Shown: in pieces, positions 5,315 to 13,969 of the stretch
Layout of the letters: each line of letters begins with the position of its first letter
How positions within the stretch are numbered: position 1 is the first letter of the stretch
Assembly (NCBI GenBank): GCA_015711825.1
Contig: JACVJD010000023.1
Span: 1-35,442 of the forward strand
Direction of reading: 5' to 3'
Length of the DNA: 35,442 nt
Source of the DNA: Candidatus Solincola daggyaiensis
GTDB lineage: Bacteria > Actinomycetota > Geothermincolia > Geothermincolales > RBG-13-55-18
The notes under the pieces: generated by a model
The model's database searches: none
What the model was told of the DNA's origin: nothing
The model's input: the letters and a program-made list of their open reading frames with translations, nothing else
Position numbers and translations under genes: made by a program

Positions 5315-6997
5315 TCAAGGCTCCTCCATGAGGATAAAAACGGCGGTGGTGGAATAATCCCCGGGGACATCCTCCCAATCCAGGGAGAGCATGAGGTCGA
5401 GATCCACATAAACCCCACCCGGTTGGGAGGTGCGGTCGCGGGCGGGGGAGAACATCTCCGCCCCCGCGAGGTCGAAGGACCTCCAGGCCCCCGCCCCTGC
5501 TAACGACCACTGCAGCCGGGAGATGGGAATGACCGCCGGGGGCGTCTGGGAATCGTCCTCCAGGTCGGTGCCGGCCCGCGCCAGCATGTTCCAGCGCGTG
5601 GAGCTCAGCACCCGCAGCCGCACCGCGTAGGGTGGGCTTCCGCCCCCCACCAGGTAGGGAGAGCCCTCGGGGCTCATGGCACCGAAGTCCACCGACCCCC
5701 CTCCCGGCGAGCCGTCCCGGTTGTAGGTCTCGGAAAGGCTCAGACTCAGGATGTCGGCGGTGCGGAAAGTCCAGGAATAGGGCGCCGCCAGGGGATTGCC
5801 GGCGAGATCCCTTACGCCCGCGCTGACGCTCGCGGTGTAGGTATAGCCGTAAAAGAGCTCGTCGGCGGGGTCAAAGGTAGCGGTCATAGCGCCCGCGTCA
5901 TAGCTCACGCTCCCGGGCACCGGGTTGCCTTCCTCGTCCACGAGGGTGAAGGTGGAGGCGTTGACGGTGCTGGCATCCACGCCGTTGGCCTCCAGGAAGC
6001 GCACCTGCACCTTCGCGCCCACCTCCACGTTGACCTCGCCGTCGGCCGGAGCGGTGCCTTCCACCCTGGGAGGTGTCCAGTCCACGACGACGCGGTTCCC
6101 GGCGCCCGGCGCCTCCACGTTGGCCACGGCGTCGGCGGCGCGGCTGCGTATCACGTACGCCCCCTCTCCCGGAATGGGCGACCAGTCGTAGAACCAGGAG
6201 GAGTAATCCCCCGGGGAGGCGGGGGTGGCCGGGGCCCAACCCGCGCCGCCGTCCACGGACACCTCCACCTGCGCGACCCCGCTGGCGTCGGGTGCCGGAT
6301 CCGAGGAGGTCCCCTCCAGCCTCAGGGAGACGGCATTGGTATAGGCGCCGTCGGCCGGGACGGCGACCGCCGAGGCCGGAGGCGTGATGTCGTATATGAA
6401 GCGCGCGCGCAGCAGGTCGATGTAGAGATCGGTGCGCAGGGAATCGGGGCCGCCGAGAACGGTGTCGGTATCGGCGATGCGAAGCTGGAATTGACCTGCC
6501 GCGCCCACGAACCTCCTGGCGAGGAGGCGGTCGCCGAGGGAAAAGCGGAGGGTATCGTCAGGCGCGGTGGGAAGCATCCCCAGGGGACGCCAGGCGGCAT
6601 CCCAGGCGCCCGCCTGGTAATCGTAGAAGCGCAGGTACCAGGCGTCGTCGGTCCTGGTCTGGTACCCCTCCAGGTCCACCTCTATATCCACGAGCTTCTC
6701 CCTGGAAGCCTCGCTGAAGGCCTGCCATCCACCCCAGGTCATATCCAGGTAACGAAACCCGCCTGAAAGCCCTTCGCGAACCCTCATGTAGGTGTTGTCG
6801 GAGGCCTGCACCGCGGTGAAGTCGCCGCTCACCCTGGCGCCACGCGTAAAGGTGGGGTTCGCGGTCGGCACCTTGTAGGCGGAATCCGCCCGGCCGCATT
6901 CGGGTATCGAGAACGACGCCATTGCGCACAGCAGCAACGCCGAGGCCAGGATGGGCAGCAACCGGCACGGCTTGGATGCAAGACCAAACCCCTTCAT
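5315..6997 (-). CDS. secreted multidomain protein with Ig-like and WxL-like C-terminal domains
   Basis: The 560-residue protein begins with a signal peptide (hydrophobic LLPILASALLLCAMASF, likely cleaved near residue 38). An N-terminal beta-rich domain follows, rich in Trp/Tyr and ending near YDITPPAS. Next are an Ig-like segment (EVSVDGGAGWAPA, VIRSRAADAVANVE) and a Big_5/SbsA-type Ig domain from TPPRVEGTAPADGE to YSWTFRTAD. The C-terminal ~140 residues (from about 418) align with the 175-residue protein at 9698: VDFGAMSPEGSPY versus VDFGGGSLDPETGSY, VLSSTRWNM versus VRSNVNWRL, and LSLDWEDVPGDYST versus LTVTWEESPDTYTA. The domain resembles WxL surface domains. The start overlaps the stop of the upstream gene as TGATG, implying translational coupling with the membrane-anchored partner. 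No sortase signal or C-terminal membrane anchor is present. Confidence 0.75.
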   Translation of the reverse strand: MKGFGLASKPCRLLPILASALLLCAMASFSIPECGRADSAYKVPTANPTFTRGARVSGDFTAVQASDNTYMRVREGLSGGFRYLDMTWGGWQAFSEASREKLVDIEVDLEGYQTRTDDAWYLRFYDYQAGAWDAAWRPLGMLPTAPDDTLRFSLGDRLLARRFVGAAGQFQLRIADTDTVLGGPDSLRTDLYIDLLRARFIYDITPPASAVAVPADGAYTNAVSLRLEGTSSDPAPDASGVAQVEVSVDGGAGWAPATPASPGDYSSWFYDWSPIPGEGAYVIRSRAADAVANVEAPGAGNRVVVDWTPPRVEGTAPADGEVNVEVGAKVQVRFLEANGVDASTVNASTFTLVDEEGNPVPGSVSYDAGAMTATFDPADELFYGYTYTASVSAGVRDLAGNPLAAPYSWTFRTADILSLSLSETYNRDGSPGGGSVDFGAMSPEGSPYLVGGGSPPYAVRLRVLSSTRWNMLARAGTDLEDDSQTPPAVIPISRLQWSLAGAGAWRSFDLAGAEMFSPARDRTSQPGGVYVDLDLMLSLDWEDVPGDYSTTAVFILMEEP

Positions 6998-7668
6998 CAA
7001 GGCTCACCCTCCCCGCCTTGCTCCGCCCGCTTGCCCCTGCCCCTCGCAAGGAACAGCGCCAACGAGGTCGCGCTCACCAGCAAGGCCCCCGCCAACGCGG
7101 CGGCCAGGACCCCCAGGGGGAAGCGGTCTTCCCCGCCGGTCCCGCCGCCCTCCGCCGCAAGCACCTCGATCTCCGCCAGCACCGCCACCCCTCCGGAGAA
7201 ACCCACGCCCTCGTTTTCCCCCTTGAACGGCTGGAAGGAAAGGGCGAAGCGATGGGTGCCCCGGTCGGCATCCTCCGGCACCCTCACCGTGAAAGGACAG
7301 CGCTCCCGCGCGCCCGGGAGGAGAGCTATCCTCTCCTTGCCCGGTATAACCCATGAACATATCTCGTCCACGGCGAGCACCGTCTCCCCTCCCTCTCCTT
7401 CCCTCACCAGCAACACCTCGGGCAGGAGCGTGACCTCCACGTCCCCCTGGTTGATGAGCTCCACCTCCACGCGGTGTTCCTCTCCCGGCGCCATGCTCAG
7501 GGGGATGCGCGTCGGCGTCACCGCCACCACCTCGCCGCATAGCGCCAGCCCTCCCTGGGCGGTGGTGGCCGCAAGGCACAACATCAGGGCCGGCGTGGCC
7601 AACGGCAGGAGGCTTTTCCTCCGTGCGGGCTTCACCGTGCCGGAAACCTCTGCTCCTTCCCCGGCCAT
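6997..7668 (-). CDS. membrane-anchored DUF916/WxLIP-like surface protein
   Basis: The 223-residue product has an N-terminal signal segment (LLPLATPALMLCLAATTAQG), then a single beta-sandwich domain opening with TPTRIPLSMAPGEEHRVEVELINQG. This pattern is typical of the DUF916 (WxL-interacting protein) N-terminal domain. A C-terminal membrane helix (VLAAALAGALLVSATSLALFL) is followed by a short basic tail, so the domain is displayed outside. The start at 7668 is preferred over in-frame starts at 7695 and 7704 because GAAGAAGGAG lies just upstream. It is translationally coupled (TGATG) to the large secreted protein, the arrangement expected of a WxL protein and its partner. It is shorter than Firmicutes WxLIPs, which usually have two extracytoplasmic domains. 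Confidence 0.65.
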   Translation of the reverse strand: MAGEGAEVSGTVKPARRKSLLPLATPALMLCLAATTAQGGLALCGEVVAVTPTRIPLSMAPGEEHRVEVELINQGDVEVTLLPEVLLVREGEGGETVLAVDEICSWVIPGKERIALLPGARERCPFTVRVPEDADRGTHRFALSFQPFKGENEGVGFSGGVAVLAEIEVLAAEGGGTGGEDRFPLGVLAAALAGALLVSATSLALFLARGRGKRAEQGGEGEP

Positions 7669-7948
7669 GTCGCTCCTTCTTCCGAAAACGGGCATGGCGG
7701 TCAAACCTCTACCTCGGCGAAAGAGCGGAATCCTTGCCGCCTTTCTCTACTATATCTTTCGGACGCGCGCAGCGGTTAGATTACCTGTTTCCGGTCAACG
7801 GCACCGCTCCCGCATGACCTGGATCAACCCCGCGGCCATCCCGTCTTCCGCCCCCCGAAGGTTTGAGGACGAGTATCCCCTGGCGGGCGGTTCTTGGCGC
7901 TTTCACTTCGTGGTGACGCCAGGGAGCCCAGGTCCACGCCCGCCCCGT

Positions 7949-7984
7949 GGGCGAGAGCCCGGCCGTTTACCGGGCCCCTCGCCC
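7949..7984. repeat. strong GC-rich hairpin in the divergent intergenic region
   Basis: GGGCGAG and CTCGCCC (7949-7955 and 7978-7984) enclose a second pair, CCCGG and CCGGG, around a CCGTTTA loop. There is no T-run on either side, so it is not a normal intrinsic terminator. It lies about 280 bases upstream of the 7668 start. Confidence 0.5.
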
Positions 7985-8042
7985 TCGATGCCATAAACAT
8001 TAGCAGGAGCGTTTCGAATTGAAGAAGGCCGGGAGGTCACCC

Positions 8043-8131
8043 TATCATCCTGACAAAACAAGCAAATGCTGCCGGGGGCATGGGGCGATCTCCCGAAGGT
8101 TCGCTCTGGGAACCATGGCCATGCGCCCGGC
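8043..8131 (+). promoter_or_regulatory. promoter-proximal structured element, copy A
   Basis: A -10-like TATCAT (8043-8048) is followed after 13 bases by GCAAAT (8062-8067). Then comes GCCGGGGGCATGG (8071-8083), which pairs with CCATGCGCCCGGC (8119-8131) at 12 of 13 positions. The loop contains a second hairpin (GGTTC 8098-8102 with GAACC 8110-8114). Copy B at 8240 has the same -10/13-base/GCAAAT spacing and the same GCCGGGGGC block. It may be a leader or small RNA element; the class is not one I can name. Confidence 0.45.
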
Positions 8132-8141
8132 CTACGAAGCT

Positions 8142-8185
8142 GAGGGGGTAAATTCAAGCAACTCCTGCAAATAACCCCCGCTCTT
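8142..8185 (+). terminator. possible terminator hairpin after element A
   Basis: GGGGGT (8144-8149) pairs with ACCCCC (8174-8179) across a 24-base AT-rich loop, followed by GCTCTTTCC. The T-run is short. If active, it would end a transcript starting near 8055 and make element A a short stand-alone RNA of about 130 bases. Confidence 0.3.
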
Positions 8186-8239
8186 TCCGACCGGCAGCTC
8201 CGCTTTCGGGCGACTTCCGCCCTCCTCGTTTCCCCATGC

Positions 8240-8313
8240 TATAATATGCCTGTTTTCGGCAAATAACGCCGGGGGCTATGGGGAATCACCCTTTCATGCT
8301 ATGTTTCTCCGGC
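8240..8313 (+). promoter_or_regulatory. promoter-proximal structured element, copy B
   Basis: A consensus -10 TATAAT (8240-8245) is followed after 13 bases by GCAAAT (8259-8264), then GCCGGGGGCTATGGGG (8268-8283). GCCGG can pair with CCGGC at 8309-8313, enclosing a GGG/CCC mini-hairpin. The 3' side of both copies reads CCGGCCT. The predicted transcript start is about ten bases before GCAAAT, so the element would form the 5' leader of the small secreted protein gene at 8362. No good -35 is visible. Confidence 0.5.
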
Positions 8314-8361
8314 CTCCACGCGCCGTCTTCAAAGTAGAAGGCGAGCGAGGAAAGGACGGAG

Positions 8362-8586
8362 ATGAGCGGGCACGCTAAATGGATGAGGGTCATGGTGTTG
8401 CCGCTGTTGATCCTGGCCCTGCTGCTGCCGTTCCCGGCTCTCTCCGCGGCGGGGGAATCCGGCTCCGTTTCCGTCAGCGTGAGGATAGGCCCTTGCATCA
8501 GCTTGACGTCGTGGGGCGGGGTGAAAAGCAACGTCTCCGTCGCCGCCTTCGCGGATTCCTCCTTCCTCACCGTCATGGCCCGCTAG
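8362..8586 (+). CDS. small secreted protein (74 aa) with truncated WxL-like strand pattern
   Basis: The 74-residue product has a clear signal peptide: a basic start (MSGHAKWMRVM), a hydrophobic core LPLLILALLLPFPA, and an ALSAAG cleavage region. Only about 45 mature residues remain. They start with alternating SVSVSVRIGPCISL, then VKSNVSVAAF. This resembles the first strands of the secreted proteins at 9698 and 5315 (VTAPVAQTIRLSV, VRSNVNWRL). AAGGA lies five bases before the ATG. It is the only plus-strand gene in the surface locus, and its last 14 bases overlap the converging gene that ends at 8573. It may be a genuine small surface peptide or a truncated WxL-like gene. Composition and start signal argue that it is translated. 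Confidence 0.6.
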   Translation: MSGHAKWMRVMVLPLLILALLLPFPALSAAGESGSVSVSVRIGPCISLTSWGGVKSNVSVAAFADSSFLTVMAR

Positions 8587-9613
8587 AGGGCGCGCCCTTC
8601 TGCTCCCCTTCCTCTCTCTCCAGCCTTATACGGATGCGCAAGCGACCGCGGCGTCTTCCTTCCCCTCCGCGCCTGCGCCTGAAAAAGCGTATGCCGAACC
8701 AGGCCGCTACCGCCAGAAACGCTGCGAACAACAACCAGAGCAGGGGGAACACCGTGAACCCGGCCTGCGCTCTTTTCTCCACCTCGAAGGTGAACTGGTC
8801 GGGGCCGTACATGATCACCGCCTCGGCCTTGAACCTCCCCAGGCAGGGCGGGGAGGGCAGCGAGCCCTCGAAGTAGCGCACCGTCCCGGGAAGCACGGTC
8901 ATGGTGCCCAACTCCACCTCCCCCGCCCCCCGGCCGAAGGCGGCGCGGTAGCGGAGAACGGCGAAGACGGTGATGTGGACGTTGCCGCTGTTCTCCACCG
9001 CCAGCCGGTAGCGCATATCCCGCGAGGGCCATCCCGCCCGCCCCTCCTCCGGAGGCCCCCACAGGGAAAGGTAATCGCTTTCCACCTCCAAGCCGGCGAT
9101 CGAGCACTCCCTGACGATTTCGCCGGGGACGGTGAGCAGAACCTGGCACCCTATGCGCGGGGTGAGCTCCGCGCCCTGTCCGGGCGAGGGAGGGGAGGCG
9201 TCCTGGAAAAAGAGCACCGCGAAATGCCCTCCCGGCTCCGCGTCCACGGGGACGTTCATGCGGAAGGAGGGGTTGGCGGACGCCCCGGCGGGCAGGTCGA
9301 AAACATCCTCGCCCTCCAGCTCTATCCACGGCGCGCACGAGTAGGGATACGAGCCGGGTTCCTCGAAGAGGAAGGTGTTGTCGGGCGTCACCGCGAAGTC
9401 CATGGCGTAGACGCGCAGCAGCAGCGGGTCGGTGCCGCTGTTGCGCAGCTCGATGGAGAAGCGCGCCGTATCCCCGGCGGGCACCTGCAGCTCCACCTTG
9501 GCGGGGATGACCGTGAGGTCGAAGCCCTGGGCCCTGGCCGCGGGCGCCCCGGCCAAGCCGCCGCAGAAGGCGGCGACGGCGATCGCCAGCACGCACGTCA
9601 ACAACCTTTTCAT
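8573..9613 (-). CDS. membrane-anchored DUF916/WxLIP-like protein
   Basis: The 346-residue protein has a signal peptide (LLTCVLAIAVAAFCGGLAGAPAARA, cleaved near residue 28). The first beta domain starts at FDLTVIPAKVELQVPAGDTARFSIELRN and includes APWIELEGEDVFDLPAG and VPVDAEPGGHFAVLFF, the standard DUF916 pattern. A second beta domain (MRYRLAVENSGNVHITVFAVL onward) follows. A membrane helix at about 291-312 is followed by an Arg-rich cytoplasmic tail. This two-domain, one-anchor layout is the full WxL-interacting-protein architecture. It sits directly downstream of the WxL-like protein at 9698 in the same direction. It appears to have its own promoter, because a terminator separates the two genes and a TATAAT lies six bases before the ATG. 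Confidence 0.75.
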   Translation of the reverse strand: MKRLLTCVLAIAVAAFCGGLAGAPAARAQGFDLTVIPAKVELQVPAGDTARFSIELRNSGTDPLLLRVYAMDFAVTPDNTFLFEEPGSYPYSCAPWIELEGEDVFDLPAGASANPSFRMNVPVDAEPGGHFAVLFFQDASPPSPGQGAELTPRIGCQVLLTVPGEIVRECSIAGLEVESDYLSLWGPPEEGRAGWPSRDMRYRLAVENSGNVHITVFAVLRYRAAFGRGAGEVELGTMTVLPGTVRYFEGSLPSPPCLGRFKAEAVIMYGPDQFTFEVEKRAQAGFTVFPLLWLLFAAFLAVAAWFGIRFFRRRRGGEGRRRGRLRIRIRLEREEGEQKGAPSSGP

Positions 9614-9619
9614 GATCAG

Positions 9620-9650
9620 ATTATAGACGTTAGGGGCCTTTCCCCGCCAA
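9620..9650 (-). promoter_or_regulatory. candidate leaderless promoter of the WxLIP-like gene
   Basis: TATAAT on the minus strand (9620-9625) ends six bases before the start codon at 9611-9613. A TTGGCG lies 19 bases further up (9645-9650). No Shine-Dalgarno sequence is present between, so transcription would begin at or next to the ATG. Confidence 0.45.
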
Positions 9651-9679
9651 GAAAGAAGCCCGGGCCGAGGCCCGGGCTT
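9648..9679 (-). terminator. intrinsic terminator after the WxL-like protein gene
   Basis: An 11-bp perfect stem (9656-9666 with 9669-9679, core AGCCCGGGCC) has a two-base centre and is followed on the minus strand by CTTTCTTGG. It lies 18 bases after the stop codon at 9698. Confidence 0.75.
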
Positions 9680-9697
9680 TCCGCATCCGGAGGATGT

Positions 9698-10225
9698 TCA
9701 CCGCGAGATGACGGTGTAGGTATGGGTCGCGGTATAGGTGTCTGGGGACTCCTCCCAGGTCACCGTGAGGGCGTAATTGACGCTGACGTCGATGTTGTTT
9801 CCCTTGATGCCCTCGGCCACCATGGTGGGCGATCCGGTCGGCCCGAACTCCGTGGCGCTCCCCCGCGTCGCCGTCACCTTGCCGCTGCTAGACGACGAGG
9901 TGAAGGTGAGCTGGCCGGAGGGGATTACGTTGGCCGGATCGTCGTTCCCGGTGAGGTCCCTGTTCTTCTCCACCTGCAGCCTCCAGTTCACGTTGGAGCG
10001 CACCGTGGCGTTGAGGCTGTCGGCGTAGGAACCGGTCTCGGGATCCAGGCTTCCCCCGCCGAAATCAACCGCGTTCTTGGACACGGAGAGGCGTATGGTC
10101 TGGGCCACCGGAGCGGTCACGGTGACCTGTTCGGGGTTCGCCGCCAGGGCGAAACCTCCCACCGCCACCGCGAGCAAGGCCGCCAACGCCCCCATCAGGA
10201 CCGCTGCTCTCGTCTTTCCTTTCAT
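9698..10225 (-). CDS. secreted WxL-like domain protein
   Basis: The 175-residue protein has a signal peptide (AAVLMGALAALLAVAVGGFALA, cleavage after AAN or ALA near residue 29). The rest is a single beta domain of about 145 residues beginning VTVTAPVAQTIRLSVSKNAVDFGG. It contains one W-x-L motif (SNVNWRL) and a late Trp (TVTWEE), the spacing characteristic of WxL domains. The C terminus of the 5315 protein is homologous. The mature protein has no anchor, so attachment would be by non-covalent binding to the wall or to the partner encoded next door. An excellent AAAGGAGG sequence precedes the ATG, and a strong terminator follows, suggesting high expression as a single-gene transcript. It could be a major surface or spore-envelope protein. 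Confidence 0.7.
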   Translation of the reverse strand: MKGKTRAAVLMGALAALLAVAVGGFALAANPEQVTVTAPVAQTIRLSVSKNAVDFGGGSLDPETGSYADSLNATVRSNVNWRLQVEKNRDLTGNDDPANVIPSGQLTFTSSSSSGKVTATRGSATEFGPTGSPTMVAEGIKGNNIDVSVNYALTVTWEESPDTYTATHTYTVISR

Positions 10226-10638
10226 CTTCGCCTCCTTTATTGAAGATTCGCTTTCTCTAAGAGCTATCGCCTTTTCCGGTTTATAAATCGATGATCCAGG
10301 TCAACTTGGAGCGTTCCATTCCGCGAATGGAGATATCGCGGCGGCAAACGGCGCCTGGCGGAGGTGAGCGGAACCCCGCAAAACGCCTTCACCGAGGCCC
10401 TGTCCGAGGCCGTAACCTTTCCAGCCGAGACACGACCCATACTTCCCCGTGTTTTTCAAGCGCGTTGCGGACCGGTCATGGGCAAGGCCATTCTCTTTGC
10501 GGCCGCATCGCGGCCCTCAACTCCCGCCGCATTTCTTCCGAAAACATACATGGGTAATGCCCGGCATGAGCGTGGCGCCGGGCGTCCCGGGGTGGGGCGG
10601 ATATACAAGGCGTGATTCGTCTCAGGGGTATTTCCCGT
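10226..10638. other. divergent intergenic region between WxL-like and repeat-protein genes
   Basis: It holds the Shine-Dalgarno AAAGGAGG of the minus-strand gene and a -10-like TATAAA at 10280-10285. Two inverted repeats are present: TCCATT/AATGGA at 10315-10331 and GGCCGC/GCGGCC at 10501-10515. I see no convincing gene or full promoter. Confidence 0.4.
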
Positions 10639-11505
10639 ATGGTCGTTGAAGGGCAGACCGGGCGGAGTTTCTTCACCACGCAACTGGCGCGCATGTTGGA
10701 GGGGGAGGGCGTGAAGGTGCCTTCCTATCTCATGGACCTCCTGGACAAGCCTTTTTCCTCCTTCACGTCCGATGACCGCGCCCTTTACGAAGGACAGATA
10801 AAGGCGAAAGGCCTGTTGCAGCTCTTCGCCAAGCTGCTGCGCAAAGCCTACGAGGCGTCGCCGGAGAGCTCACGCCACAGCTGGCGCGGCATGTGCCACC
10901 TGCTCAAGGACTCCCCCATCAAGGTCTGCGCCGCCTTCGTCCTGAGCGCCGAGGAAGGCGTAGCCGCCCAAGGGAACGCCGCTGCGAGCGCCATCCAGCG
11001 CGGCGCCCCACCCCGCGCTCCCGGGACTGCGGCGGCGCGGGAGGTCACACCCGCCGCTGACGCCTCACGCAAGAGCTTCTTCACCAAGAAGCTGGAGCGC
11101 AAGCTGGAGGGGCGCGGGGTAAAGGTGCCCGCCGCCATCATCTCCTTGCTGGACAAGCCCTTCCAGGACTTCACCCCCGAAGACAGGGAGCTCTACGAGG
11201 CGGAGTTCAAGGCCAGACAGCTCATCATCCTCTTCTCCGACCTCCTGGACGAGCTCTACGAGGAAACGGGGAAGTGCGAAAGCGGCTGGAGCGCCATGTG
11301 CCGTTTCCTCAAGGACACCCCCATGAAGTTGATCGCCACCTATGTGCTCAAAGAGGAGGAAAGGCTGGAGGAGGCGGAGGAGGAGGCTGCACCGCAGCTT
11401 GCCGCCGGCGCGCAGCCGCGCGAGAAGTACAACGTGCGACCCTACCAGCCCTCGCCGAACAAGGATAGGGCCGCGGCGGAAAGGCGGCGCGGGCTTTTAC
11501 GCTGA
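10639..11505 (+). CDS. orphan protein with two tandem ~97-residue repeats
   Basis: The 288-residue product consists of two homologous segments, at about residues 10-106 and 145-241. About half of the aligned positions are identical. Shared blocks include SFFT, GVKVP, LLDKPF, DR-LYE, MC--LKD and the end EE. An Ala/Pro-rich linker joins the repeats, and a Glu-rich then basic tail ends the protein. It is mostly helical, with no signal peptide or membrane segment, so cytoplasmic. I recognise no family. The ATG at 10639 is preferred to the GTG at 10612: it has CAGGGG about eleven bases upstream, and the extra residues add nothing conserved. Upstream and downstream genes face away or converge, so it appears monocistronic. 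No function is proposed. Confidence 0.8.
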   Translation: MVVEGQTGRSFFTTQLARMLEGEGVKVPSYLMDLLDKPFSSFTSDDRALYEGQIKAKGLLQLFAKLLRKAYEASPESSRHSWRGMCHLLKDSPIKVCAAFVLSAEEGVAAQGNAAASAIQRGAPPRAPGTAAAREVTPAADASRKSFFTKKLERKLEGRGVKVPAAIISLLDKPFQDFTPEDRELYEAEFKARQLIILFSDLLDELYEETGKCESGWSAMCRFLKDTPMKLIATYVLKEEERLEEAEEEAAPQLAAGAQPREKYNVRPYQPSPNKDRAAAERRRGLLR

Positions 11506-11697: not shown

Positions 11698-12345
11698 TCA
11701 GGTGACCAGGCCGCGGCGCAGGGCGGCGGCCACCGCCTCGGTGCGGTCGCTCACCCCCAGTTTCTCGAAGATATGGGCGATGTGGGTCTTCACCGTCTGT
11801 GCGCTGATGAAGAGCTCCTGGGCGATCTCGCGGTTGGATTTGCCGTCGGCGAGGAGTTGCAGGACCTCCAGCTCGCGGTTGCTGAGGCCGTAGGTCTCGC
11901 GGTTGCGCCGCGCCAGGGCCACGTATTCCTTGAGCAGCTTGGCCTGGGCGTCGGGGTGAAGGGTGGCTCCCCCCTTGTGCACTTCCTTGATGGACTTCAC
12001 CAGTTCATCCAGGCCCGCGTTCTTGAGCAGGTAACCGGTGGCTCCCGCCTTCACCGCCTCGTAAACGTAGGCCTCCTGATCGAGCATGGTCAACATGATC
12101 ACCGCCGCCTCCGGGCACTCCTTTTTCAGCAGCCTGGTGGCGGTGATCCCGTTCATGACCGGCATGCTCACGTCCATGAGCACCACGTCGGGACGCAGGG
12201 ACCTGGCCTTGGCCACCGCCTCCTCGCCGTCCCCTGCCTCGCCCACGATCTCTATCTCCGGGTTCACGCGCAGCAGGTTGACCAGGCCCTCCCGCACCAG
12301 GCGGTGGTCGTCAACCACCAGCACCTTGATGGTCCTGTCGCCCAA
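11698..12345 (-). CDS. NarL/FixJ-family response regulator
   Basis: The 215-residue protein has a receiver domain at about residues 6-122, with the acidic pair VVDDH, the phosphoacceptor in LMDVSMPVMNG, and the conserved Lys in YLLKNA. A LuxR-type helix-turn-helix follows at about 150-210 (LSNRELEVLQLLADGKSNREIAQEL, then SAQTVKTHIAHIFEKLGV). The start codon is TTG at 12343-12345, preceded by GGGAGGTG that lies within the last codons of the kinase gene. Kinase stop and regulator start are one base apart, so the two are translationally coupled and almost certainly form one system. Target genes are unknown; the tandem-repeat orphan lies just downstream but on the opposite strand. Confidence 0.93.
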   Translation of the reverse strand: MGDRTIKVLVVDDHRLVREGLVNLLRVNPEIEIVGEAGDGEEAVAKARSLRPDVVLMDVSMPVMNGITATRLLKKECPEAAVIMLTMLDQEAYVYEAVKAGATGYLLKNAGLDELVKSIKEVHKGGATLHPDAQAKLLKEYVALARRNRETYGLSNRELEVLQLLADGKSNREIAQELFISAQTVKTHIAHIFEKLGVSDRTEAVAAALRRGLVT

Positions 12346-12346
12346 T

Positions 12347-13969
12347 TCACACCTCCCTGGTTATCCCGCGTAGGGGCAGCATGGCGATGACCGCGGTCCC
12401 CTTGCCCTTGCCCGCCCTTATCTCCAGCGAGCCCCCCAACGACTCCGCGCGTTCCCTCATCCCCACCAAGCCGAAGCCGCCCGAGAAGCGGCGTTGGGTG
12501 CCGGCGGGCTCCAATCCCACCCCGTCGTCTACGACCTCCAACACCAGGGAGTCGCCCTCCACGCGCAACGCCACCCGCACCCGCGTGCATCGCGAGTGTT
12601 TCAAAGCGTTGTTCGTGGCCTCCTGGGCGATGCGGAAAAGCGCCGTCTCCGCCTCCAGGGTGAGGGGAGGGAGACTCTTTTCCTCCCTTTCCAGGACGAT
12701 GCGGCAATCGGCTTTCTCCTGCAGCTGCCTCACGTGCTTCTCCAGCGCCACCGCCAGGCCGAGGTCATCGAGAACCGAAGGCCGCAACCCCGCCACTATC
12801 CTGCGCATCTCGGCGATGCTCCCGTCCATGATCTCCTCCGCCTCCCGCAGGGCGCGGGCCGCCTCGCTGTCCGCGTCACCCATACGCACCGCGCACAAGC
12901 GCAGGCGGTAGAGGGCGCTCACCAGGTTCTGGATCACCCCGTCGTGCAGCTCCACCGCCACCCTGCGGCGCTCGTCCTCCTGTGCGGTGATGACCTTCTG
13001 GAGCAGTTGGCGCTGCACCTCCTCGTCGTAGCGGAGATCGTCATAAAGGCGCGCGTTCTCTATGGCCATGGCGGCCTGGTTCGCTATGGCCGTCAGCAGC
13101 TCCCTCTCCTCATCCGTGAAGGACATATCCTCCCGGCGCCCGAGGAACACCGCCCCGGTGATCCCTCCCTTGACCTTGAGGGGCAACAGGAACACCGCCT
13201 TAAGCTCGCTCAGCAACCCTGGCTCCTCTCCCTCCACCAGGTCCTTCGCGGCGACGCGCAAGGGGCCGCCGGCCTCGCCCTCTCCTCCCCCCGTCAGCTC
13301 CCGCAGGCGCTCGGGGGCCAGGTCGAGCCTCGCGGGCCCCCGTCCGTCCCCATCGCAGGTCGCGCAGGCGGAGGCGATGCGCAGGGAACCCTCCTCGCCG
13401 TCGAAGAGCCCGATGCAGCAGAGATCGAGGTCGAAGAGCTTCAGCAGCTCCCCGGTGATGAAGGATAGGATGTCGTCGATCTCCAGGGTGGAGATGAGGG
13501 TCTCGGTGACGCGGTAAAGGGTCGAGACCTGCAGGCCCTTGATGCGGTCCCGCCTGATCTCCTCCTCCACCTTGCGGTGCCGCGGCTCCAGGGCTTTGGC
13601 CACGTATCCCTTAAGGGCCTCGGGGTCGAAGGGCTTGGTGATATACTCGATCGCTCCCCCGCTGTATCCCCTGATGCGGTCCACGTCGGAGTGGCGGGCG
13701 GTTACCACCACCACCGGGATGCCCGCCGTGGCCTCCTGGGACTTGAGGGCTTTGAGGACATCCCAGCCGTCCATAACCGGCATCATGATGTCCAGCAGTA
13801 TGCAATCGGGAGGGCGGCGCGCCACCTCCTCCAGCGCCTCCCTGCCGTCGTGGGCGATACGCACCTCGTACCCCTCGAACTGGAGGTTCAAGGCGATGAT
13901 CCTGGCCACGTCGGGCTCGTCGTCGACCACCAGGATATCGGGCTTCCCCTCCTCGTCATCCCGCCGCAT
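12347..13969 (-). CDS. cytoplasmic histidine kinase with N-terminal receiver domain (REC-GAF-HisKA_3-HATPase)
   Basis: The 540-residue protein has no membrane segment. Residues 10-125 are a receiver domain (ILVVDDEPDVARI, phosphoacceptor in CILLDIMMPVMDGWD, Lys in ITKPFDP). Residues about 150-320 form a GAF domain with Cys residues in DLCCIGLF and SACATCDG. About 335-405 is a NarX/DegS-type dimerisation domain with the phosphorylated His in RVAVELHDGVIQNL. About 430-535 is the ATPase (N box EATNNALKHS, G boxes VVDDGVGLEP and GGFGLVGMRERAE). A receiver at the front of a kinase suggests that an upstream phosphorelay or another kinase tunes its activity. Its partner is the coupled NarL-type regulator. 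The GAF Cys pairs could bind a cofactor or sense redox, but this is inference. Confidence 0.93.
   Translation of the reverse strand: MRRDDEEGKPDILVVDDEPDVARIIALNLQFEGYEVRIAHDGREALEEVARRPPDCILLDIMMPVMDGWDVLKALKSQEATAGIPVVVVTARHSDVDRIRGYSGGAIEYITKPFDPEALKGYVAKALEPRHRKVEEEIRRDRIKGLQVSTLYRVTETLISTLEIDDILSFITGELLKLFDLDLCCIGLFDGEEGSLRIASACATCDGDGRGPARLDLAPERLRELTGGGEGEAGGPLRVAAKDLVEGEEPGLLSELKAVFLLPLKVKGGITGAVFLGRREDMSFTDEERELLTAIANQAAMAIENARLYDDLRYDEEVQRQLLQKVITAQEDERRRVAVELHDGVIQNLVSALYRLRLCAVRMGDADSEAARALREAEEIMDGSIAEMRRIVAGLRPSVLDDLGLAVALEKHVRQLQEKADCRIVLEREEKSLPPLTLEAETALFRIAQEATNNALKHSRCTRVRVALRVEGDSLVLEVVDDGVGLEPAGTQRRFSGGFGLVGMRERAESLGGSLEIRAGKGKGTAVIAMLPLRGITREV

Follow-up and report, generated by a model that had tools for sequence, protein, structure and literature searches.

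The 35,442-nucleotide window analyzed here (positions 1 to 35,442 of contig JACVJD010000023.1, assembly GCA_015711825.1) comes from a draft genome of the hot-spring-type actinobacterium Candidatus Solincola daggyaiensis (3.0 Mb in 190 contigs), of the class Geothermincolia, and contains a locus that probably encodes a divergent surface-display system of the type formed by WxL proteins and WxL-interacting proteins (WxLIPs). Four minus-strand open reading frames (ORFs), in the order small WxL-like protein, anchor A, anchor B, and large protein, make up two docking modules (Table 1): (i) the small WxL-like protein with the two-domain anchor A; and (ii) the one-domain anchor B with a large protein that joins a Big_5 domain to a WxL-like domain. 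An earlier reading of the sequence alone had proposed a C-terminal domain common to both secreted proteins, and the small protein is indeed homologous to the large protein's C-terminal domain (BLASTP E 8e-7; hhalign 97.8% probability, E 1e-12, 127 columns). That each secreted gene adjoins an anchor gene on the minus strand, and that a protein with a Big_5 immunoglobulin-like (Ig) domain (Pfam E 2.8e-24) carries the WxL-like module, are borne out as well.

It is well supported that both anchors are divergent relatives of WxLIP (DUF916/DUF3324), as the sequence-only reading had suggested. Direct Pfam and NCBIfam scans of the window proteins gave hints only: in the Pfam scan, anchor A itself had no PF06030 match, and anchor B matched PF06030 only at E 0.031. 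At the level of the family, PF06030 is the Pfam model that most anchor members match (15/27, best E 2.4e-6); run over 59 genomes, it lands on the orthologues of anchor A, with one actinobacterial relative, from genome G052, above the cut-off. By hhalign, the anchor family aligns to a profile of nine Bacilli WxLIPs with 96.8% probability (E 3e-10) over 242 columns, collinear over both Ig domains, while off-diagonal negative controls reached 4.6% and 13% probability. The WxL and WxLIP profiles were built from natural WxL clusters on Bacilli plasmids; the WxLIP genes were fetched with an artificial consensus probe derived from the published motif, and only the natural sequences retrieved were used afterwards. 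Reciprocally, a hidden Markov model (HMM) built from actinobacterial and Patescibacteria anchors recovered the WxLIP gene in 10/10 Bacilli loci (E 1.5e-22 to 1.4e-4), the next non-member scoring 0.21. Its matches in Bacilli include separate DUF916 and DUF3324 genes, among them a stand-alone DUF3324 ORF at E 7e-5, and Pfam reported no PF11797 (DUF3324) match among anchor family members. Anchors A and B are mutually homologous (BLASTP E 3e-6). Kinship with WxLIP extends over both domains of anchor A; for anchor B it holds by the family HMM (E 5e-18), but the second Ig domain is missing.

The AlphaFold2 model of anchor A (pLDDT 86.9) shows two beta-rich domains and a C-terminal helix. Compared with 350,542 PDB chains, it ranks 9i25_C and 9i1y_A, the solved Enterococcus WxLIP, first and second, 9i25 being a solved WxLIP–WxL complex; among PDB sequences, WxLIP was found neither by phmmer with the WxLIP-like protein of G052 nor by a search with the anchor-family profile. 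Fold and sequence evidence for anchor A agree on WxLIP kinship. Like WxLIP (PF06030/PF11797; PDB 9i1y and 9i25), anchor A has a signal peptide, a pair of Ig-like domains in matching order (the second follows the first in the profile alignment, the model, and the HMM), and a C-terminal membrane helix with a basic tail; its length is comparable (346 vs. 337–365 amino acids (aa)), and it adjoins a small secreted partner. The window anchors differ from WxLIP in that they fall below the Pfam cut-off and their family alignment lacks the NQIDKxxxYFDLK motif, the family conserving instead the blocks EEPGxYxYSCAxW and AEPGGH; anchor B further differs in having the first, PGBD-like domain only, without the HBD. 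The AEPGGH block sits inside the first Ig domain of anchor A, and the stretch PDNxFxFEEPGxYxYSCAxW is among the most conserved parts of that domain in the family alignment.

A C-terminal hydrophobic segment is present in 115/118 anchors, and in 108 of the 115 with a C-terminal membrane helix, Lys and Arg residues are more numerous behind the helix (mean 4.7) than in front of it (mean 1.2). Bacilli anchors likewise end in a basic tail (9/9). This is the charge pattern expected of a protein held in the membrane of its own cell with the tail inside, and it therefore argues against a helix that enters a host membrane. Such entry, with the second Ig domain binding host tissue, has been proposed for the proteins of gut Bacilli (PMC10599100); as an account of the window locus, we regard a host-attachment device of this kind as very improbable, given the tails in both groups of anchors and the fact that the relatives of Ca. 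Solincola and many of the pair-carrying Patescibacteria are, by their record titles, environmental metagenome-assembled genomes (MAGs).

The secreted partners resemble WxL proteins in their gene context, their architecture, and motif 1. The window has the layout of a WxL cluster, in which a WxLIP gene, a small gene, and a large gene stand together, with WxL-like genes in place of WxL. As described for WxL (PF13731), there is one small single-domain protein and one large protein with the domain at its extreme C-terminus (PMC10599100), a position that it occupies in 75/75 partners longer than 300 aa. The first strands are also alike (xGWxLxVkqxxqF vs. NxxWxLxVxKxxDL): W81 is invariant and L83 nearly invariant across 19 small-family members, and the motif 1 region matches Bacilli WxL motif 1 with 89% probability over 31 columns (hhalign). 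A profile–profile comparison of the large protein with Bacilli WxL gave 0.2%. The partners differ from WxL in having no Pfam match and in their last strand. In the profile alignment, the partner strand YTATHTYTV pairs with the Bacilli strand YxTTLTWxL, which indicates that the second W-x-L has changed to Y-x-V, and the conserved Trp lies one strand earlier, where the x-L that should follow it is missing in nearly all members. The "final Trp strand" of the sequence-only reading is therefore not the second WxL motif. Because the WxL model fails (0/19 small-family members match PF13731, with none in G000) and the second W-x-L is missing, we do not class the partners as WxL; what we claim is a shared role, and common descent is probable. 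In the 9.2 Mb genome G052, loci L059 and L020 hold an above-cut-off PF06030 protein whose neighbor, of 441 aa, ends in the WxL-like block GPAGWSLTGKVTDFSG. The gene next to the PF06030 protein has a weak PF13731 match, and this pair may link Bacilli WxL to the window family.

Within the class, anchor A and the small gene are both present in 17 of 31 genomes, and none of the 31 has only one of them at a comparable score (nominal Fisher 4e-9, ignoring shared ancestry); one distant genome gave a marginal, partial anchor match at 5e-6. Separation of the genes in related genomes had been set beforehand as a refuting observation. They are kept together in 17/17 genomes: in all 14 where both lie on the same contig, the small gene is directly upstream of anchor A on the same strand, and in the remaining three, the two genes are at contig ends. 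Modules A and B are separable, since anchor B and the large gene pair separately: they adjoin in seven genomes, and in G001, module B is on a contig apart from module A. In G012, the anchors and the large gene are together, with the small gene at the end of another contig. Two further genomes deserve mention. The pair of G002 (contig C14), of the same genus as the window, is far more distant, at 31% and 36% identity, than the pairs of the family's other genera, which suggests replacement or transfer; in the draft genome G013 (C8:104301-105208), anchor A is split over two frames, by a frameshift or an assembly error.

Scanning genome contigs with the anchor profile yielded 78 loci, spanning Geothermincolia, Thermoleophilia/Gaiellales, other actinobacteria, one Dehalococcoidia MAG, and many Patescibacteria (Saccharibacteria, Parcubacteria, Gracilibacteria, Berkelbacteria, and others). 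The anchor occurs in 38/198 sampled Actinomycetota genomes, and a WxL-like neighbor also accompanies it in two genomes outside the class, G032 and G035. As judged by an HMM iterated on the same loci, a WxL-like gene lies inside the fetched stretch in 73/78. The rate of WxL-like matches falls with gene distance from the nearest anchor, from 51% to 23% to 9% and then to 0/225 at a distance of at least four, and the reversed-sequence control gave no WxL-like matches. Matches of the iterated HMM to ORFs of ~95 aa behind anchor A correspond to a conserved mini-ORF (described below) and are not false positives. Because the pair is also found in Patescibacteria, Thermoleophilia, and a Dehalococcoidia MAG, the "actinobacterial version" of the system envisaged from the sequence alone is too narrow. 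A repeated gene layout is shared by nine loci, mostly of Saccharibacteria (L145, L159, L161, L165, L168, L169, L171, L138, and L141): an anchor is followed by a small WxL-like gene in convergent orientation, then by a tandem series of one to five WxL-like genes of ~340 aa, and last by a second anchor. The Dehalococcoidia MAG (L107) has a WxL-like/anchor pair at 34% identity.

The mechanism that we propose has four steps. First, all four proteins, to judge from their signal peptides, would be exported by Sec. Second, anchors A and B would stay in their own membrane by means of the C-terminal helix and the basic cytoplasmic tail, as the helix and tail charges support, and would present PapD-like Ig domains, two in A and one in B. 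Third, the WxL-like domain of each partner would be an incomplete beta-sandwich, completed by a strand or hairpin from the first Ig domain of the anchor, so that anchor A would hold the small protein and anchor B the large protein non-covalently; this contact, the strand involved, and the stoichiometry we infer from the fold, the Bacilli WxLIP–WxL case, and the gene pairing. In Bacilli, an AlphaFold2 prediction has the WxL sandwich completed by a WxLIP hairpin (PMC10599100), and the conserved stretch PDNxFxFEEPGxYxYSCAxW would be the candidate donated hairpin in the window. Fourth, the small protein, which has its own strong ribosome site and terminator, may be overproduced to form a layer or platform on the surface; the large protein may point its N-terminal beta domain and its Ig repeats away from the cell, as an arm that binds ligands or surfaces.

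Several results weigh against an assignment to the WxL/WxLIP type. The profile match between partners and WxL (89%) is confined to 31 columns around motif 1, and it drops to only 7.6% when the partner profile is widened with Patescibacteria sequences, so the comparison relies on the narrow profile. An HMM of the partner mature domain matched two Bacilli WxL proteins at E 8e-5 and 4e-4 with high composition bias; neither PF13731 nor a second W-x-L is found in the partners, and the solved WxL chain 9i25_A is absent among the 50 fold matches listed for the small protein. For anchor A, the TM-scores to WxLIP are modest (0.36/0.45); PapD-like fimbrial chaperones rank close behind and score nearly as well, and therefore the fold alone would not decide. 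The iteration behind the count of 73/78 has in the gene-distance gradient a partial guard against drift only, and the third and fourth steps, physical contact and display, are argued by analogy. The failure of the Pfam WxL model and of the widened profile, together with weak matches of some anchors to fn3_5 and NPCBM_assoc, would also fit partners that belong to an unrelated beta-sandwich family converged on the W-x-L look and anchors that, as membrane Ig proteins of a generic NEW3/CARDB-like kind, lack any WxLIP function. This we consider unlikely in view of the reciprocal profile matches between anchors and Bacilli WxLIPs, with their clean gap, the WxLIP as top structural match, and the same small/large/anchor gene architecture. 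For the partners, then, the claim to WxL identity stands in gene context, architecture, and motif 1, and falls on PF13731 and motif 2.

A second alternative arises from the model of the small protein (pLDDT 86.6), which is all-beta after the signal peptide and has as best fold matches TLP-1b (9ikk) and chaperone-usher pilins such as CfaB, the PapG pilin domain, and CsuA/B. The partner model thus resembles chaperone-usher pilins and the anchor model, which matches PapD-like chaperones next after WxLIP, resembles their chaperones. The locus could accordingly be read as a chaperone-pilus of a monoderm, where small proteins are donor-strand-exchange pilins, anchors are tethered PapD-like chaperones or the fiber base, and the large protein is a tip adhesin with an adhesive N-terminus and a C-terminal pilin-like domain. 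An adhesin-like architecture is seen in 75/75 large partners; several tandem small genes occur in some genomes; the small gene is followed in four genomes by a terminator-like hairpin, which suggests excess production; and NPEQVTVTAPVA, right after the signal peptide of the small protein, is moderately conserved yet unmodelled as a strand. Nevertheless, the TM-scores of these fold matches are only ~0.4–0.5, a fiber is here a prediction, no usher or assembly ATPase turned up (no search was aimed at either), and Bacilli WxL proteins are described as peptidoglycan-bound rather than as fibers (PMC10599100). We therefore rate this as a possible alternative, well behind a WxL/WxLIP-type display system.

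The likeness to chaperone-usher pili (PapD/CsuC/CfaA with PapG/CsuA/CfaB) lies in the two-Ig chaperone fold and in the pilin-like incomplete Ig fold among the best matches; unlike their chaperones, the window protein is membrane-anchored, and no sequence similarity was detected. Archaeal threads and TasA-type filaments (PMC9715654, PMC9674648) are similar by description in their secreted beta-sandwich subunits and donor-strand logic, as well as in having a companion protein whose first strand is similar, whereas threads have no recognized chaperone gene. Most economically, a membrane-held Ig domain likely donates a strand to a pilin-like partner. More tentatively, WxL/WxLIP might be one branch of a very old, widespread, and unrecognized donor-strand system of single-membrane bacteria (Actinomycetota, Patescibacteria, and others). 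In such a counterpart of chaperone-usher pili, secreted subunits of pilin-like form would be built into fibers or layers by PapD-like proteins anchored in the membrane.

Table 1. Features of the WxL-like/anchor locus in the window.
Feature	Position	Strand	Details
Large WxL-like secreted protein	5315..6997	-	561 aa; ORF and five homologues
C-terminal WxL-like domain of large protein	5318..5755	-	Residues 416-561; hhalign to small family
Big_5 Ig-like domain of large protein	5759..6079	-	Residues 308-414 from TTG at 7000; Pfam E 2.8e-24
Anchor B, WxLIP-like	6997..7704	-	235 aa; first Ig domain only, transmembrane helix, basic tail
Convergent mini-ORF	8362..8586	+	74 aa; signal peptide and ~45 aa; overlaps 3' end of anchor A
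Anchor A, WxLIP-like membrane protein	8573..9613	-	346 aa
Anchor A transmembrane helix (residues 291-319) and basic tail RRRRGGEGRRRGRLRIRIR	8576..8746	-	Model helix H291-319; tail charges
Anchor A second Ig domain, HBD/DUF3324-like	8747..9118	-	Residues ~166-289; collinear hhalign; family HMM; model
Anchor A first Ig domain, PGBD/DUF916-like	9119..9526	-	Residues ~30-165; PF06030 in orthologues; hhalign to Bacilli WxLIP
GC-rich hairpin and T-rich tail directly 3' of small gene	9656..9679	-	10 bp stem; terminator or attenuator
Small WxL-like secreted protein	9698..10225	-	175 aa; signal peptide, then single beta-sandwich domain; ORF and 19-member family alignment
W81-x-L83 codons (SNVNWRLQV), counterpart of WxL motif 1	9977..9985	-	Family alignment; profile match to Bacilli

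The hairpin behind the small gene is the strongest terminator-like site of the region, with similar hairpins at the same place after the small gene in three relatives (L094, L097, and L106). Since TATAAT also precedes the anchor A ATG, 6 bp 5' of it, the small gene and anchor A look more like adjoining transcription units than like one tight operon. Anchor B, whose true start may lie downstream of the TTG, is probably translationally coupled to the large gene, because its stop codon overlaps the large-gene ATG at position 6997, the A of which is the last base of the stop (TGATG). Some 870 bp separate the two modules and hold the convergent mini-ORF, which has homologues in the same convergent place at L098:1314-1601, L099:8306-8587, L100:6566-6853, and L097:8291-8890 (all minus strand). 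Pfam gave no match for its product, of which the ~45 aa after the signal peptide are like the first strands only of the WxL-like fold; it is possibly a cap or donor peptide. Adjoining the locus, two candidate regulators are encoded at 11698-13969 (minus strand): a receiver-GAF-histidine kinase and a response regulator of the LuxR type. The 297-aa protein encoded at 10612-11505 (plus strand), for which Pfam gave no match, is internally duplicated and has the block VKVP...LLDKPF...LYE twice.

Published surveys assign nearly all WxL proteins to Lactobacillales and Bacillales and account for them by attachment to the gut of a host (PMC10599100, PMC9772566), and the open-licence literature gave nothing that links WxL or DUF916 to Saccharibacteria or Patescibacteria. 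The probable docking of surface proteins by anchor and partner is far older and wider than reported. Because anchors occur in 38/198 Actinomycetota genomes and in many Patescibacteria lineages, with a partner nearby in 73/78 loci, binding to gut tissue is unlikely as the basic job of the system. To our knowledge, Dehalococcoidia is a class without peptidoglycan, and if the pair at L107 is genuine rather than contamination, the basic function cannot be binding to peptidoglycan either. In Saccharibacteria, whose attachment to hosts is an active question, the pairs are candidate surface proteins, and strand donation from a membrane-held Ig domain is a simple prediction, testable in culturable organisms.

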